From positions 62,001 to 126,000 of the forward strand of contig JACRCL010000016.1 of the NCBI GenBank assembly GCA_016219015.1: 64,000 bases of DNA, read 5' to 3'. A program made the position numbers and the translations under genes. The notes under the pieces were generated by a model. That model did no database searches. It was not told where the DNA came from and worked only from the letters and a program-made list of their open reading frames with translations. Source of the DNA: Deltaproteobacteria bacterium (GTDB lineage: Bacteria > Desulfobacterota > GWC2-55-46). Shown here piece after piece: positions 16,855 to 23,040 of this stretch (positions within the stretch are counted from its first letter, which is position 1; the number at the start of each line of letters is the position of its first letter).

Positions 16855-17472
16855 ATGAGGGCTATACCTGTCATGAAGGCATCGTTGACACAGAAGCCGA
16901 ACAATAAAGTACTGATCGCGGAAGACAATTCCAAGACAAGGCTCTTCTTAAAAAACCAGCTTGAGCTTTTGGGCTATGAGGTGATCGCGGCGGTATCGAA
17001 CGGGCAGGCGGCCGTGGACGCCGCGGCTGAGCTGGGCCCGAACCTCGTGATAATGGACATAAAGATGCCGGAGATGGACGGCATCGACGCCGCGAGGGTC
17101 ATTAGCGACAAAGGGCCCGTCCCCATAATACTCATAACCGGCCTTTCCTCTGATGAGATGGCCTTGAAGGCCATAGAGGCCGGGGTATTCGCCTACCTGG
17201 TCAAGCCCGTCACTAAAAAGCAGCTCGAGCCCGCCATAAAGCTCGCCCTTGCAAGGTACGAGGAGTTCAAGAGTCTCAAGGTGGAGGTCAATGACCTCAA
17301 GGACGCCATCGAGACCAGGAAGCTCGTCGAGCGCGCAAAGGGCATCCTCATGAAGCGGTGCAACATCTCCGAGGAAGACGCCTTCAAGCTCCTCCAGACC
17401 CACTCCCAGAAAGAGAACAAGAAGATGCGCGAGATTGCGGATACGATAATCTCCGCGAGCAAGCTCATCTGA
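16855..17472 (+). CDS. Response regulator with ANTAR RNA-binding output domain
   Basis: 205 residues. Receiver domain about 17-135 with acidic pocket E23/D24, phospho-acceptor D68 in VIMDIKMPEMDG, and conserved lysine in YLVKPV near 121. A coiled-coil linker follows, then an ANTAR domain (about 148-205) with KLVERAKGILMKRCNISEEDAFKLL. ANTAR proteins bind paired hexanucleotide stem-loops in nascent RNA and prevent termination, often in nitrogen assimilation. No histidine kinase is adjacent. A second ATG at 16873 is a possible start. It lies directly upstream of the TPP-riboswitch operon but has no demonstrable link to it. Confidence 0.93.
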   Translation: MRAIPVMKASLTQKPNNKVLIAEDNSKTRLFLKNQLELLGYEVIAAVSNGQAAVDAAAELGPNLVIMDIKMPEMDGIDAARVISDKGPVPIILITGLSSDEMALKAIEAGVFAYLVKPVTKKQLEPAIKLALARYEEFKSLKVEVNDLKDAIETRKLVERAKGILMKRCNISEEDAFKLLQTHSQKENKKMREIADTIISASKLI

Positions 17473-17564: not shown

Positions 17565-17593
17565 TTGACTACGGCACTTCAGGCTGGTATTGT
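17565..17593 (+). promoter_or_regulatory. Promoter of the thiamine operon
   Basis: TTGACT at 17565-17570 and TATTGT at 17588-17593 with a 17-bp spacer. The expected start near 17600 places the TPP aptamer at the very 5' end of the transcript. Confidence 0.6.
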
Positions 17594-17602
17594 TATACCA
17601 TT

Positions 17603-17695
17603 AGCGCTAGGGGAGTCCGCAGGGACTGAGAGTTCTCGGTAACGAGAAGACCCTAACGACCTGATCTGGGTAATGCCAGCGTAGGGAAGCGTCTG
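17603..17695 (+). promoter_or_regulatory. TPP riboswitch (THI element)
   Basis: All THI-box landmarks appear in order: CTAGGGGAG, CTGAGA, GACCCT, ACCTGATCTGGGTAATGCC and the closing GCGTAGGGAAGC. This aptamer binds thiamine pyrophosphate. An intrinsic terminator 37 bp downstream suggests control by premature transcription termination. The regulated genes are those at 17833-23040. Confidence 0.96.
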
Positions 17696-17731
17696 AAATA
17701 AAATTTTTTCAAACTCTCCCATGCTATTTCA

Positions 17732-17757
17732 GCCGCCCCGGTCAGGGCGGCTTTTTT
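17732..17757 (+). terminator. Riboswitch-controlled intrinsic terminator
   Basis: GCCGCCC(CGGTCA)GGGCGGC stem-loop (17732-17751) followed by six T residues. It lies between the TPP aptamer and the first thiamine gene, as expected for an attenuation platform. Confidence 0.88.
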
Positions 17758-17762
17758 ATTTA

Positions 17763-17822
17763 GCAGGCTGTTGAAAAACAGTCTGCTAAAGCAATCCATG
17801 GATGGACTTTTTCAACATCCTA
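17763..17822 (+). repeat. Repeat family C, short copy between riboswitch and first thi gene
   Basis: CAGGCTGTTGAAAAA at the left end pairs with TTTTTCAACATCC at the right end; the centre is mostly deleted. It relates to the roughly 120-bp elements at 21630-21752 and 63281-63396. It ends about 11 bp before the ATG at 17833, so the ribosome-binding region of that gene derives from or abuts the element. Confidence 0.8.
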
Positions 17823-17832
17823 TTGGACTAAA

Positions 17833-19182
17833 ATGGTCGTAGACACTCGAATAATAGAATCCCTCCTCCAGGGGCCTCAACCCTCCGCCGGGAAAGTAGC
17901 GCGGATACTCGAAAAGGCCGGAGCGTGCAAGGGGCTCGGCATAGAGGACTCCGCGGCCCTCATCACCATCGAGGCCCCCGATATACTGAACGCCGTCTTT
18001 AAAAAGGCCGGAGAGGTGAAGGAGCGCGTATTCGGCAAGAGGGTCGTCCTCTTCGCGCCCCTGTACCTTTCCAACCACTGCACCAACGGCTGCGTCTACT
18101 GCGGGTTCAGGAGCGCCAACAGGGAATTCCCCCGTAAGGCGCTTGATGTGCCCCAGACAATAAAAGAAGCGCGTTCGCTCGAGGAGATGGGCTTTAAAAG
18201 GGTCCTGCTGGTAACGGGCGAGGACCCCCGCTACGGGCTCGATTATATAATCTCGTGCGTAAGGGCTATATACGAAAATACCGGGATAAGGATAGTCCAT
18301 GTGAACGCCCCCCCGATGGACACGGAGTCGCTGAAGGCGTTGAAAGGTTCCGGCGCCGGGGTCTACCAGGCGTTCCAGGAGACGTACCACAGGCCGACCT
18401 ACGAGAAGATGCACCCGTGGGGCATGAAAAAGGACTATGACTTCCGTATCGAGGTGATGGACAGGGCAATGTCCGCCGGGTTCGGCGACGTCGGCATAGG
18501 CCCGCTTTTGGGGTTGTACGACTACAGGTTCGACAGCCTCTCGGCCATAGCCCACTCGCGCCACCTCTACGACGAGTTCGGCGCTCACGCGCATACGATA
18601 TCAATACCGAGGCTCCGTCCGGCGCAGGCCGGGTTGAGCGAGGTCCCTTGCCCCGTGTCCGACGAGGAGCTTAAAAAGATAGTCGCTGTCTTGCGCTTGA
18701 GCGTCCCTTCGGCAGGCGTTGTCGTATCCACGAGGGAAGGGGCATCTTTAAGGAACAGGCTCATGCACGTTGGCGCGACTCAGTTGAGCGCGGCGTCCCG
18801 CACGAACCCCGGCGGCTATACCGAAGGCGAGGGCCTCGAACAGTTCTCCACGAATGACAAGAGGTCTTTGCCCGAGGTCATAAGGTCGGTCATAGACGAG
18901 GGGTACCTGCCGAGCCTTTGCACGACCTGCTACAGGGTGGGCAGGGTCGGCCATGAGTTCACGGAAAAGACGATAGCCGGGGAGATGGGCAGGCTCTGCC
19001 AGGCTAACGCCATATTGACCCTGAAGGAGTACCTCCTCGACCACATCAAGAACGGCTCGAGGGAGGCGGTGGAGAGGTCTTTGGAGGAGGGGCTTAAGGA
19101 AGTCAAAGACCAGGCGCTTAAAGACGCGCTCATAAGAAAGTTAAAAGAACTTGAAGAAGGCGGGAGGGACCTCTTTTTTTAA
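17833..19182 (+). CDS. HydG-type radical SAM tyrosine lyase in the thiamine operon (functional ThiH candidate)
   Basis: 449 residues. The radical SAM CX3CX2C motif is C83-C87-C90 in SNHCTNGCVYCGF. Downstream blocks IRIVHVNAPPM, QETYHRPTYEKMHP, DVGIGPLLGLYDYRF and SAASRTNPGGY are those of HydG. The C-terminus carries C363, C366 and C389, exactly the CX2CX22C pattern that binds the second, auxiliary cluster of HydG; E. coli ThiH (about 377 residues) lacks this tail. Both enzymes cleave tyrosine to dehydroglycine and p-cresol; HydG goes on to make CO and cyanide for [FeFe]-hydrogenase. Position first in a TPP-riboswitch operon with thiS and thiG argues that this one supplies dehydroglycine for thiazole synthesis. 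No hydE, hydF or hydrogenase is in the window. Confidence 0.9.
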   Translation: MVVDTRIIESLLQGPQPSAGKVARILEKAGACKGLGIEDSAALITIEAPDILNAVFKKAGEVKERVFGKRVVLFAPLYLSNHCTNGCVYCGFRSANREFPRKALDVPQTIKEARSLEEMGFKRVLLVTGEDPRYGLDYIISCVRAIYENTGIRIVHVNAPPMDTESLKALKGSGAGVYQAFQETYHRPTYEKMHPWGMKKDYDFRIEVMDRAMSAGFGDVGIGPLLGLYDYRFDSLSAIAHSRHLYDEFGAHAHTISIPRLRPAQAGLSEVPCPVSDEELKKIVAVLRLSVPSAGVVVSTREGASLRNRLMHVGATQLSAASRTNPGGYTEGEGLEQFSTNDKRSLPEVIRSVIDEGYLPSLCTTCYRVGRVGHEFTEKTIAGEMGRLCQANAILTLKEYLLDHIKNGSREAVERSLEEGLKEVKDQALKDALIRKLKELEEGGRDLFF

Positions 19183-19183
19183 A

Positions 19184-19384
19184 ATGATAATACGCGTAAA
19201 CGGAGAAGAAAAATACTTCAAGGACGGCTTCACCATAGAAGACGTCCTGAACGAGCTTAAGATAAAGCCCGAGGGCATGGCAGTAGACCTCAACAGGGGG
19301 ATAATCCCCAAGAGGCTCTACAATAACACGATGCTCAAGGACGGGGACACCGTGGAGATAGTGAAGATGACCGGCGGCGGGTAG
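19184..19384 (+). CDS. thiS: Sulfur carrier protein ThiS
   Basis: 66 residues when started at MIIRVNGEE, one base after the upstream stop codon. It has the beta-grasp ubiquitin-like fold and ends in the required Gly-Gly (MTGGG), which becomes a thiocarboxylate that donates sulfur to ThiG. Upstream in-frame codons overlap the preceding gene and are not part of the fold. The activating enzyme ThiF is not in this operon and must be encoded elsewhere. Confidence 0.94.
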   Translation: MIIRVNGEEKYFKDGFTIEDVLNELKIKPEGMAVDLNRGIIPKRLYNNTMLKDGDTVEIVKMTGGG

Positions 19385-19417: not shown

Positions 19418-20188
19418 ATGTCAGACGCATTGAAGATAGGTAAAAGGGTTTTCAGGTCCCGCCTGATGGTAGGCACCGGCAAGTACCCCACTAATGAAGT
19501 CATGAAAAAGGCGCTCGAGGCGTCCGGGGCCGAGGTCGTGACAGTTGCCGTAAGGCGCGTAAACCTTGACCGCACGGGTGAATCGCTCCTCGACCATATA
19601 GACCTGAAGAGATACACTCTGCTGCCGAATACCGCCGGCTGCTACACGGCGGAGGACGCGATAAGGACAGCCCGGCTCGCGAGGGAGGCCCTCGAAACCG
19701 AGCTCGTCAAGCTCGAGGTCCTGGGCGATGAAAAGACTCTCTTCCCGGACAACGAGGCGCTCCTGCAGGCGGTGAAGGTCCTCGTCAAAGAGGGTTTCAC
19801 GATACTCCCTTACACCAACGACGACCCGATAATGGCTAAGAAGCTCGAAGACGCCGGGTGCGCGGCTGTTATGCCCCTGGCGGCCCCTATCGGCTCCGGG
19901 CTCGGCATAAGGAACCCGCATAACATCAGGATAATACTCGAGACGATTAAGGTGCCGGTGATCGTGGACGCGGGCGTGGGCACGGCCTCTGACGCGGCCA
20001 TAGCCATGGAGCTCGGCTGCCACGGGATACTCATGAATACCGGGATAGCCGGGGCAAAGGACCCGGTATCGATGGCAAGGGCCATGAACCTCGCGGTGGA
20101 GGCCGGGAGGCTCGCGTACCTTGCCGGCAGGATTCCTAAAAAGCTCTACGCCACGGCGTCAAGCCCGATTACCGGGCTTATAGGATAA
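19418..20188 (+). CDS. thiG: Thiazole synthase
   Basis: 256 residues, typical ThiG length, a TIM barrel. It condenses 1-deoxyxylulose-5-phosphate, dehydroglycine and ThiS-thiocarboxylate into the thiazole phosphate. Characteristic segments are [13 protein letters not shown] near 11, TVAVRRVN near 43, [13 protein letters not shown] near 68 and [21 protein letters not shown] near 178. CAAGGAGA-type ribosome-binding sequence precedes the ATG. It follows thiS by 33 bp in the riboswitch operon. Confidence 0.97.
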
Positions 20189-20216: not shown

Positions 20217-20999
20217 TTGCACCCGATACTCTTCAAATGGGGCCCGATAGAGATAAGGTTCTACGGGCTCATGTATGTGATAGCCATCCTTACGGGGAGC
20301 TATCTCATCAAAAGCGAGGTGAAGAGGAAGGGTATCCGCATGACGGATGACGACGTGATGAACTTCATCATCTGGACGGTGATAGGCGGCGTTGTCGCGG
20401 CGAGGGCCTATTACGTGGTATTCAACCTCGGCTATTACCTCGCCAACCCGGTTGAGATACCCGCGGTATGGCACGGCGGGCTCGCGATACACGGGGGAAT
20501 GATAGGCGGGCTGCTTGTAGCCTGGTTCTACCTTAAAAGGCGGGATGTGAAATTCTGGAGGATGGCCGACGCCGTGGCGCCGGCCATAATACTCGGGCAG
20601 GCCTTCGGCAGGTTCGGCAACTTCATGAACGGGGACGCCCACGGCAGGCCCACGGACATGCCCTGGGGCATAGTCTTTCCCCCGGGGTCGATCGCCGGGG
20701 CCGAGTTCCCCAATACGCCCCTCCACCCGACAATGCTCTATGAGCTGACGATAAACTTCCTGATATTCTGCCTTCTCTGGTTCGGGCTGAGGAAAAAAGA
20801 GCACAAAGACGGCTTCATATTCGCTTCCTATATCGCGCTCTATTCGACCGGCAGGTTCATCGTAGAAGGGTTCAGGGCTGACAGCCTCATGCTCGGCCCA
20901 ATACGGGTAGCCCAGCTTGTAAGCGTTACCATAGCCATCGTAGCCGCGGCCTTTATAATAAACAAAAGGCTCTGGGTCCCTCCGGCTAAAAGGGCATAG
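20217..20999 (+). CDS. lgt: Prolipoprotein diacylglyceryl transferase
   Basis: 260 residues, seven predicted transmembrane helices. It transfers diacylglycerol from phosphatidylglycerol to the lipobox cysteine of prolipoproteins in the inner membrane. Family blocks are IRFYGLMYV near 12, AVWHGGLAIHGGMIGG near 83 with the essential HGG, and the Lgt signature GRFGNFMNGDAHGR near 125. Translation probably starts at the TTG at 20217, preceded by AGGAGA 10 bases upstream. Its place between thiG and thiE, 28 bp and 5 bp from its neighbours, puts a lipoprotein-maturation gene under the TPP riboswitch. Confidence 0.95.
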   Translation: MHPILFKWGPIEIRFYGLMYVIAILTGSYLIKSEVKRKGIRMTDDDVMNFIIWTVIGGVVAARAYYVVFNLGYYLANPVEIPAVWHGGLAIHGGMIGGLLVAWFYLKRRDVKFWRMADAVAPAIILGQAFGRFGNFMNGDAHGRPTDMPWGIVFPPGSIAGAEFPNTPLHPTMLYELTINFLIFCLLWFGLRKKEHKDGFIFASYIALYSTGRFIVEGFRADSLMLGPIRVAQLVSVTIAIVAAAFIINKRLWVPPAKRA

Positions 21000-21004
21000 T
21001 AAAG

Positions 21005-21622
21005 ATGCCGGTCTATCTCGTGACAGACAGAAGGCTTGTCGATGATATCGTAATGGCCGTTGAAAGCGCGCTGGAGGGCGGGGTCAGGCTCGTCCAACTG
21101 AGGGAGAAGGACCTGAGCGCCAAAGAGATACTAACGCTCGCTAAAAGGCTCAGGGCAAAGACAGCGGAGTCCGGGGCCAGGCTCTTCATAAACGACAGGG
21201 TCGATATAGCGCTACTATCCGGCGCTGACGGCGTACACCTCGGGCAAAATAGTTTTTCACCGGTTGACGCGCGTAAGGCCCTTGGAAAGAAGATGCTCAT
21301 TGGAGTGTCGGCCCATTCGATTAAAGAGGCTGAGGCGGCGGAGCAGCAGGGGGCCGACTTTGTCACCTTCGGCCCGGTATTCCATACGGCCTCCAAGGCC
21401 CGTTACGGAGAGCCTGTGGGCACAGGCCTTTTGAAAGAGGCGTGCGGCAGGCTCAATATACCCGTATACGCCATCGGCGGGATAAAAAGGGAGAATATGA
21501 AAGACGCCGTTGCCGCCGGGGCCGGAGGCGTCGCGGTCATATCCTCTATACTCGGCAGCAGGGATATAAGAAAAAGCGCGGAGCAGCTTGTCAAAGAGTT
21601 CGAGCGTTTGAGAGCTGTCTAA
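21005..21622 (+). CDS. thiE: Thiamine-phosphate synthase
   Basis: 205 residues, TIM barrel. It joins HMP-pyrophosphate and thiazole phosphate to give thiamine phosphate. Visible motifs are LVQLREKDLSAKE near 31, FINDRVDIALLSGADGVHLGQ near 63, the phosphate-binding VSAHSIKEA near 102, TFGPVFHTASK near 121 and AIGGIKRENM near 158. It begins 5 bp after lgt and is surely co-transcribed. ThiD, which makes its substrate, is not in the window. Confidence 0.95.
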   Translation: MPVYLVTDRRLVDDIVMAVESALEGGVRLVQLREKDLSAKEILTLAKRLRAKTAESGARLFINDRVDIALLSGADGVHLGQNSFSPVDARKALGKKMLIGVSAHSIKEAEAAEQQGADFVTFGPVFHTASKARYGEPVGTGLLKEACGRLNIPVYAIGGIKRENMKDAVAAGAGGVAVISSILGSRDIRKSAEQLVKEFERLRAV

Positions 21623-21765: not shown

Positions 21766-23040
21766 ATGACCCAGCTTGAATCAGCCCGCAAGGGCATGAT
21801 CACGGAAGAGATGAAAAAGGCCGCGCTCTTCGAGGGCGTTGAGCCAGAGCAGATACGGAAAGGCATCGAGGAGGGGGTTATAATAATAACCAAGAACCTC
21901 CTCCACAGGAAGATCGACGGCCTTGCCGTGGGCAGGGGCCTGAAGACCAAGGTGAACGCGAATATCGGCTCCTCGCAGGACAGGGTAGACGTAAAAGAGG
22001 AGCTTGAAAAGCTAAAAGTAGCGATAGAGGCCGGGGCAGACGCGGTCATGGACCTCTCCACGGGCGGCGACCTGAACGCCATCAGAAAAGCGGTAATGGA
22101 CGCTTCCACCGTGCCCATCGGCACGGTGCCCATCTACCAGGCGGCGTACGACGCGAGGAAGAGGGGGAAGTCTTTCGTTGAGCTTACCTCTGACGAGATA
22201 TTCGCCTCAATCGAGGCCCACGCCGAGGACGGCGTCGACTTCGTGACCGTCCATTGCGGCGTTACGCAGAGGTCGGTGGAGAGGGTAAAAAAGCAGGGCC
22301 GCATCATGGGCATAGTCAGCAGGGGAGGGGCGCTCACCGCAGAATGGATGAGGTTCAACAAGAAGGAGAACCCGCTCTTCGACGAGTTCCCGCGCCTTTT
22401 GAAGATAGCCAAGAGGTACGACCTCGTCCTGAGCCTCGGCGACGGCCTGCGGCCCGGGTGCCTGGCCGACGCTACCGACAGGGGGCAGGTGGAGGAGCTT
22501 ATAATCCTCGGTGAGCTTGCGAAAAGGGCCTTCGACGAGGGCGTGCAGGTCATGATAGAGGGGCCGGGGCACGTGCCCATAGACCAGATAGAGGCGAACA
22601 TTCTCCTTCAAAAAAGGCTCTGCAACGGCGCGCCTTTCTATGTGCTCGGGCCGCTGGTGACGGACGTCGCGCCCGGCTACGACCACATAACCTCTGCCAT
22701 AGGCGGCGCCATAGCCGCCTCGGCCGGAGCGGACTTCCTCTGCTACGTCACCCCGAGCGAGCACCTGAGGCTTCCGACCGTCGAGGACGTTAAAGAGGGC
22801 GTCATAGCCTCACGCATAGCGGCCCATGCAGGAGACATAGCCAAGAAGGCGAAAGGCGCGATGGAGGCTGACATAAGGCTTGCGAAGGCGCGGAAGGCGC
22901 TCGACTGGGACGAGCAGATAAGGCTATCGATAGACCCGAAGAGGGCGCGTTCTTTGAGGGACACCAGCTTGCCCGAGGATTCGGACGTGTGTACGATGTG
23001 CGGGAGCCTATGCGCGATAAAGATTGATGGGCGAACGTAA
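21766..23040 (+). CDS. thiC: Phosphomethylpyrimidine synthase
   Basis: 424 residues. A radical SAM enzyme that rearranges aminoimidazole ribotide into HMP-phosphate. Recognisable segments are DRVDVKEELEKL near 76, VDFVTVHCGVT near 155, SRGGALTAEWM near 184, GDGLRPGC near 225 and EGPGHVPID near 264. The C-terminal CX2CX4C cluster motif in CTMCGSLC (near 412) is intact. The family-C repeat just upstream may carry an internal promoter or simply interrupt the operon; no terminator is seen between thiE and thiC. Confidence 0.97.
   Translation: MTQLESARKGMITEEMKKAALFEGVEPEQIRKGIEEGVIIITKNLLHRKIDGLAVGRGLKTKVNANIGSSQDRVDVKEELEKLKVAIEAGADAVMDLSTGGDLNAIRKAVMDASTVPIGTVPIYQAAYDARKRGKSFVELTSDEIFASIEAHAEDGVDFVTVHCGVTQRSVERVKKQGRIMGIVSRGGALTAEWMRFNKKENPLFDEFPRLLKIAKRYDLVLSLGDGLRPGCLADATDRGQVEELIILGELAKRAFDEGVQVMIEGPGHVPIDQIEANILLQKRLCNGAPFYVLGPLVTDVAPGYDHITSAIGGAIAASAGADFLCYVTPSEHLRLPTVEDVKEGVIASRIAAHAGDIAKKAKGAMEADIRLAKARKALDWDEQIRLSIDPKRARSLRDTSLPEDSDVCTMCGSLCAIKIDGRT

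Follow-up and report, generated by a model that had tools for sequence, protein, structure and literature searches.

A HydG-type, two-cluster radical SAM lyase in a TPP-controlled thiamin operon as a predicted substitute for ThiH

Why an enzyme with the build of the hydrogenase maturase HydG should be encoded where a thiamin operon would be expected to carry thiH is the question raised by the gene at positions 17833 to 19182 (+ strand) of the 64,000-nucleotide stretch of DNA analyzed here, referred to below as the window. According to our analysis, this gene is predicted, with a probability of roughly 0.8, to encode the 2-iminoacetate (dehydroglycine) synthase of its operon, feeding ThiG in the place of ThiH. 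The basis of this prediction, read from sequence, is the protein family, the operon, its control by TPP, the lack of any other detected ThiH, ThiO, HydF, or hydrogenase, and the retention of the tyrosine and cluster residues. On the best reading of the data, the two-cluster lyase represents a distinct lineage distributed across several phyla, which would be sister to HydG and would have kept the HydG-type C-terminal domain.

The open reading frame encodes a protein of 449 amino acids, which harbors the radical SAM cysteines C83, C87, and C90 in a CX3CX2C arrangement together with an exact CX2CX22C auxiliary-cluster motif formed by C363, C366, and C389. It scores 408 bits against the NCBIfam HydG model TIGR03955, above the cut-off of 312, and 312 bits against the ThiH model TIGR02351, under the cut-off of 380; the curated family score therefore designates HydG and not ThiH, which counts against the proposed role. 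The top match in the PDB is the HydG of T. italicus (4WCX; E value, 1e-121), and the match to the ThiH structure 7PD1 is much weaker. An AlphaFold2 model, for which the input relatives were solely those found in this analysis, has a pLDDT of 90.8 and superposes over its whole length on 4WCX (TM score, 0.96; RMSD, 1.6 Å), whereas the ThiH structure aligns with a shorter stretch of the model. The initial annotation of the locus as encoding a HydG-type protein with both CX2CX22C and the radical SAM cysteines is thus borne out by the motifs and the TIGR03955 score, and the model and residue comparisons likewise point to a HydG-type radical SAM tyrosine lyase.

On the same strand, the gene is followed by thiS, encoding the sulfur carrier with its GG end (19184 to 19384; TIGR01683, 66.5 bits, and PF02597), thiG, encoding thiazole synthase (19418 to 20188; PF05690, 384.5 bits), lgt, encoding prolipoprotein diacylglyceryl transferase (20217 to 20999; TIGR00544, 220.8 bits), thiE, encoding thiamine phosphate synthase (21005 to 21622; TIGR00693, 197.6 bits), and thiC, encoding phosphomethylpyrimidine synthase (21766 to 23040; NF009895, 653 bits). 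Upstream lies a TPP riboswitch aptamer, or THI element (17599 to 17704, + strand; RF00059, 72.5 bits by cmscan with a gathering score of 54.3). The aptamer and the profile matches agree with the earlier description of a gene heading a thiS, thiG, thiE, and thiC operon behind a THI element, in which lgt had been left out of the listing. This gene is probably a passenger; it occupies the same operon position only in members of the window's own class and is missing from more distant operons. Just 5' of the aptamer, a sigma-70-like promoter (TTGACT-17-TATTGT; 17565 to 17593, + strand) is predicted from a consensus match alone, at 9 of 12 positions, and a pattern scan places an intrinsic terminator hairpin followed by a T run at 17731 to 17752 (+ strand; 8-pair stem, 7 of the pairs G-C), which is the probable expression platform of the riboswitch. 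An inverted repeat, AGCAGGCTGTTGAAAAACAGTCTGCT, follows the terminator, ahead of the start codon (17763 to 17788), and a partial further copy of it, TTTTTCAACATCCT, is present before the ATG. Directly 5' of the riboswitch, positions 16855 to 17472 encode an ANTAR-domain response regulator, copies of which, 78 to 83% identical, adjoin the same operon at loci L041, L047, L048, and L052.

The 64 kb had been reported to contain no hydE, hydF, or [FeFe]-hydrogenase gene, and when we inspected the whole assembly (2.24 Mb, 96.6% complete) by profile searches, this held throughout. The HydA domain of [FeFe]-hydrogenases was not detected, HydF did not exceed its cut-off, and HydE yielded an 80-bit cross-match of the window protein itself and one 19-bit match, with nothing above the cut-off. 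The same whole-genome searches returned no second HydG/ThiH homologue and no ThiO, for which the best match reached 55 bits where 251 are required, so that the proposal is not contradicted by a canonical thiH accompanied by hydEF or hydrogenase genes elsewhere in this genome. A ThiF-family protein is encoded outside the operon. Another possible thiazole route is provided by Thi4. Since a search covering ThiH, HydG, and ThiO revealed neither a second ThiH/HydG nor a ThiO, the window protein is the only candidate source of dehydroglycine found among these families.

Among 297 genomes of the same phylum, HydG-family proteins were identified in 70 at E values of 1e-60 or less, the weakest of which are ThiH proteins, and the proteins resembling the window protein, at approximately 360 to 450 bits, are located in thi operons. 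A scan of GTDB representatives added clade members from other Deltaproteobacteria MAGs, Nitrospirota, Deferribacterota, and Moorella mulderi. In this thi-linked clade, 28 of 30 loci have a same-strand thiG no more than 3 kb away and none of the 30 has HydE, HydF, or HydA nearby, whereas at the loci of hydrogenase-type HydG, many of which have short flanks, thiG is near in 0 of 48 and HydE, HydF, or HydA in 28 of 48. One of the two exceptions without thiG is at a contig end; the other is directly 3' of an open reading frame which, read by eye, appears to be a ThiS-ThiF fusion, with ThiS at its start and ThiF as the remainder. A TPP riboswitch is found upstream in 19 of the 22 clade loci tested. 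We also considered trivial explanations: an assembly artifact or chimera is ruled out by the occurrence of the same operon in more than 25 independent genomes, an accidental gene order by the thiG neighborhood counts, and a missed second ThiH by the homologue search of the window's own genome and the ThiH search of the carriers.

None of the 24 genomes from the window's phylum that carry the thi-clade gene has canonical ThiH, HydF, or the [FeFe]-hydrogenase domain, and canonical ThiH is also absent from four carriers of other phyla (Nitrospirota, Deferribacterota, and Moorella). ThiH is present in 15 of the 34 genomes with a hydrogenase-linked HydG, and its distribution differs between the two sets at a Fisher P value of 3.5e-5 in which related genomes are counted as independent. 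The telling case for the replacement of ThiH is Moorella, in which a true HydG (642 bits) and HydF are encoded alongside a separate thi-linked copy (433 bits), without a canonical ThiH; M. mulderi thereby offers a cultured host with both HydG forms. A search for a vitamin requirement of Moorella yielded just a thiamine-containing medium. Operon position and co-occurrence provide correlative support for the role of ThiH. As regards ThiG itself, the proteins encoded beside HydG-type enzymes (L039 to L063, L101, L112, and L118) are 68 to 91% identical to the window ThiG, with that of Moorella at 59%, and those beside canonical ThiH in the same phylum (L071 to L075) are 46 to 54% identical, so that ThiG seems to track the lyase type.

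HydG and ThiH share the same first step. In the window enzyme, the presumed substrate, tyrosine, would be cleaved at the radical SAM cluster into p-cresol and dehydroglycine, and the latter would be supplied to ThiG, which is the job of ThiH. The radical SAM CX3CX2C motif is invariant in 31 of 31 thi-clade members, and so are T300, R301, R307, S319, and S322, the counterparts of the tyrosine site known for TcThiH (PMC9046217). The partners of the tyrosine carboxylate are unlike those of both families, which is a point against the proposed role. In TcThiH the carboxylate is bound by Glu158 (PMC9046217), at which column the thi clade has N158 in 31 of 31 members, Asn as in HydG; at the column where 21 of 53 HydG proteins have a compensating glutamate (Glu133 in TiHydG), the clade has V127. 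Four further residues, I154 (Arg in HydG), H156 (Asn), V177 (Thr), and V297 (Ile), distinguish 30 to 31 of the 31 members from the 53 HydG proteins, and H156, near Asn158 on the same strand, may have a part in carboxylate binding.

From the first site, dehydroglycine would pass through an internal channel and reach the second cluster, to be docked there and handed over to ThiG instead of being fully split into CO and cyanide. This docking and hand-over function is the weakest step of the proposal, and we advance it tentatively, rating it slightly below an even chance. C363, C366, C389, and H254 are invariant in 31 of 31 members, and H254 aligns with His265 of TiHydG, which we take, from the work on 4WCX, to be a ligand of the dangler iron. 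The mean identity within the clade is 58% in the auxiliary motif region and 60% in the barrel, and a motif region as conserved as the barrel indicates that the auxiliary cluster is under selection. The sequences carry no sign that dehydroglycine escapes splitting, because all known ligands of the CO/cyanide chemistry are kept.

No such domain is needed by canonical ThiH for this job (PMC9046217), as would be expected if the auxiliary cluster were structural, or a site of electron entry, with no part in the handling of dehydroglycine. We deem this unlikely, since it leaves unexplained why the histidine of the dangler iron is kept in all 31 members. Less likely still is that the full HydG reaction, which gives CO, cyanide, and an Fe(CO)2(CN) synthon, has been kept, part of the dehydroglycine being converted into CO and cyanide on the auxiliary-cluster iron and the rest passing to ThiG, with the Fe(CO)x(CN) product used or tolerated by the cell. 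The invariance of the auxiliary cysteines, the His265 counterpart, and the surrounding motif in 31 of 31 members, together with the fit of the model to 4WCX at a TM score of 0.96, is consistent with such a reaction; however, the clade has other residues at columns 154, 156, and 177, where R, N, and T are fixed in HydG, and since HydF and [FeFe]-hydrogenase are absent from the 24 carriers and HydE from the window's own genome, the product would have no known user. That CO and cyanide made during vitamin synthesis would have to be dealt with by the cell is speculation.

A quick first tree, rooted on HydE, unites the 31 thi-linked proteins (support of 99). Long branches met in this tree, and it was replaced by ThiH-rooted trees, the first of which places the thi group (99/67) as sister to hydrogenase-linked HydG (90/81), as does the second (94/75 and 98/84, respectively). 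In approximately unbiased (AU) tests, topologies in which the thi group nests next to the Alkaliphilus HydG group are not rejected (P = 0.465, and 0.115 once more ThiH sequences were included), nor is one that removes Moorella from the thi group (P = 0.408). The separate identity of the thi-linked lineage is well supported, and its exact attachment point, in view of the AU tests, is not. The initial annotation had left the choice between a recruited HydG and a form intermediate between ThiH and HydG in which the second cluster is retained. These readings are partly supported; a thiamin-linked lineage that is distinct and of old origin becomes more likely than plain recruitment of an ordinary HydG, as in the best trees the protein falls not inside hydrogenase-linked HydG but in its own clade, sister to it.

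Recruitment would mean that a hydrogenase maturase entered thiamin operons recently and more than once, the auxiliary cluster being a leftover. The HydG-like fold and family score, as well as the nesting retained by the AU tests, would fit such a history, but the thi-linked sequences stay together in all three trees, with the hydrogenase HydG as a group of its own (98/84), which fits one old event better than several recent ones. Moreover, a motif conserved like the barrel is unexpected of a leftover, and I154, H156, V177, and V297 are found in 30 to 31 of the 31 members where HydG has other fixed residues. We consider recruitment improbable. It is hardly credible that the protein functions in hydrogenase maturation and is found in the thiamin operon by accident, even though the HydG cut-off is passed, since no hydrogenase or HydF is found in the window's or 23 other carrier genomes, the operon is conserved across several phyla, and the other genomes would stay unexplained even if a hydrogenase were hidden in the 3% that the assembly does not cover.

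The proposed dehydroglycine synthase appears ThiH-like in its work and HydG-like in its build, and it fails one defining test of each family. With HydG (TIGR03955; 4WCX and 4RTB) it shares the whole-length fold, the radical SAM cysteines, CX2CX22C, the His265 counterpart, the tyrosine-site residues, and Asn at the column of ThiH Glu158; unlike HydG, it belongs to a separate clade, its gene lies in a TPP-controlled thi operon of a genome without HydE, HydF, or hydrogenase, and I154, H156, V177, V297, and L362 replace the HydG residues. With ThiH (TIGR02351; 7PD1) it shares the thiS/thiG operon, the TPP riboswitch, and the tyrosine-site residues, and the thi-clade enzyme and ThiH appear to be mutually exclusive. 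Unlike ThiH, it scores below the ThiH cut-off, has Asn in place of Glu158, and possesses an extra C-terminal cluster domain of approximately 90 residues, which is present in all thi-clade members and corresponds to gaps in ThiH. NosL/MIA synthase, HydE, PylB, and BioB belong to the same radical SAM barrel superfamily, with far lower sequence and fold scores. In open-license papers we found no description of HydG-type proteins in thiamin operons.

The thi-linked lineage bears on the origin of the second site, which makes CO and cyanide in HydG, and a lineage that keeps that site yet would serve B1 synthesis is a natural comparison for separating tyrosine cleavage from CO/cyanide formation. It is conceivable, although we find it doubtful, that the thi clade still performs what was originally the function of the HydG lineage, with B1 synthesis coming first and hydrogenase maturation being built on it later; if so, the second cluster would predate the need for CO and cyanide, as a site for holding or handing over dehydroglycine. 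The thi-clade proteins are also an annotation trap: because the curated HydG model accepts them, hydrogenase-free genomes will be labeled as having a hydrogenase maturase and, seemingly, no ThiH.

Other HydG-family proteins encountered in the survey deserve mention. A third HydG-like paralog (L064 to L070, e.g., L068:5851-7311), found in genus g73 of family f45, keeps CX2CX22C (CAACPRLGR...) and has lost tyrosine-site and ligand residues (R307W, S319L, H254R in 3 of 4, E183D, and Y367P); it has no adjoining thi or hyd genes, and some of its host genomes lack HydF yet encode a canonical ThiH. In two draft genomes, G079 (L020) and G298 (L175), a hydrogenase-type HydG is present and HydF was not found, which may reflect genome incompleteness or another function. 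Finally, genome G308 (L122) contains three HydG-family matches, one of them with an in-frame TGA.
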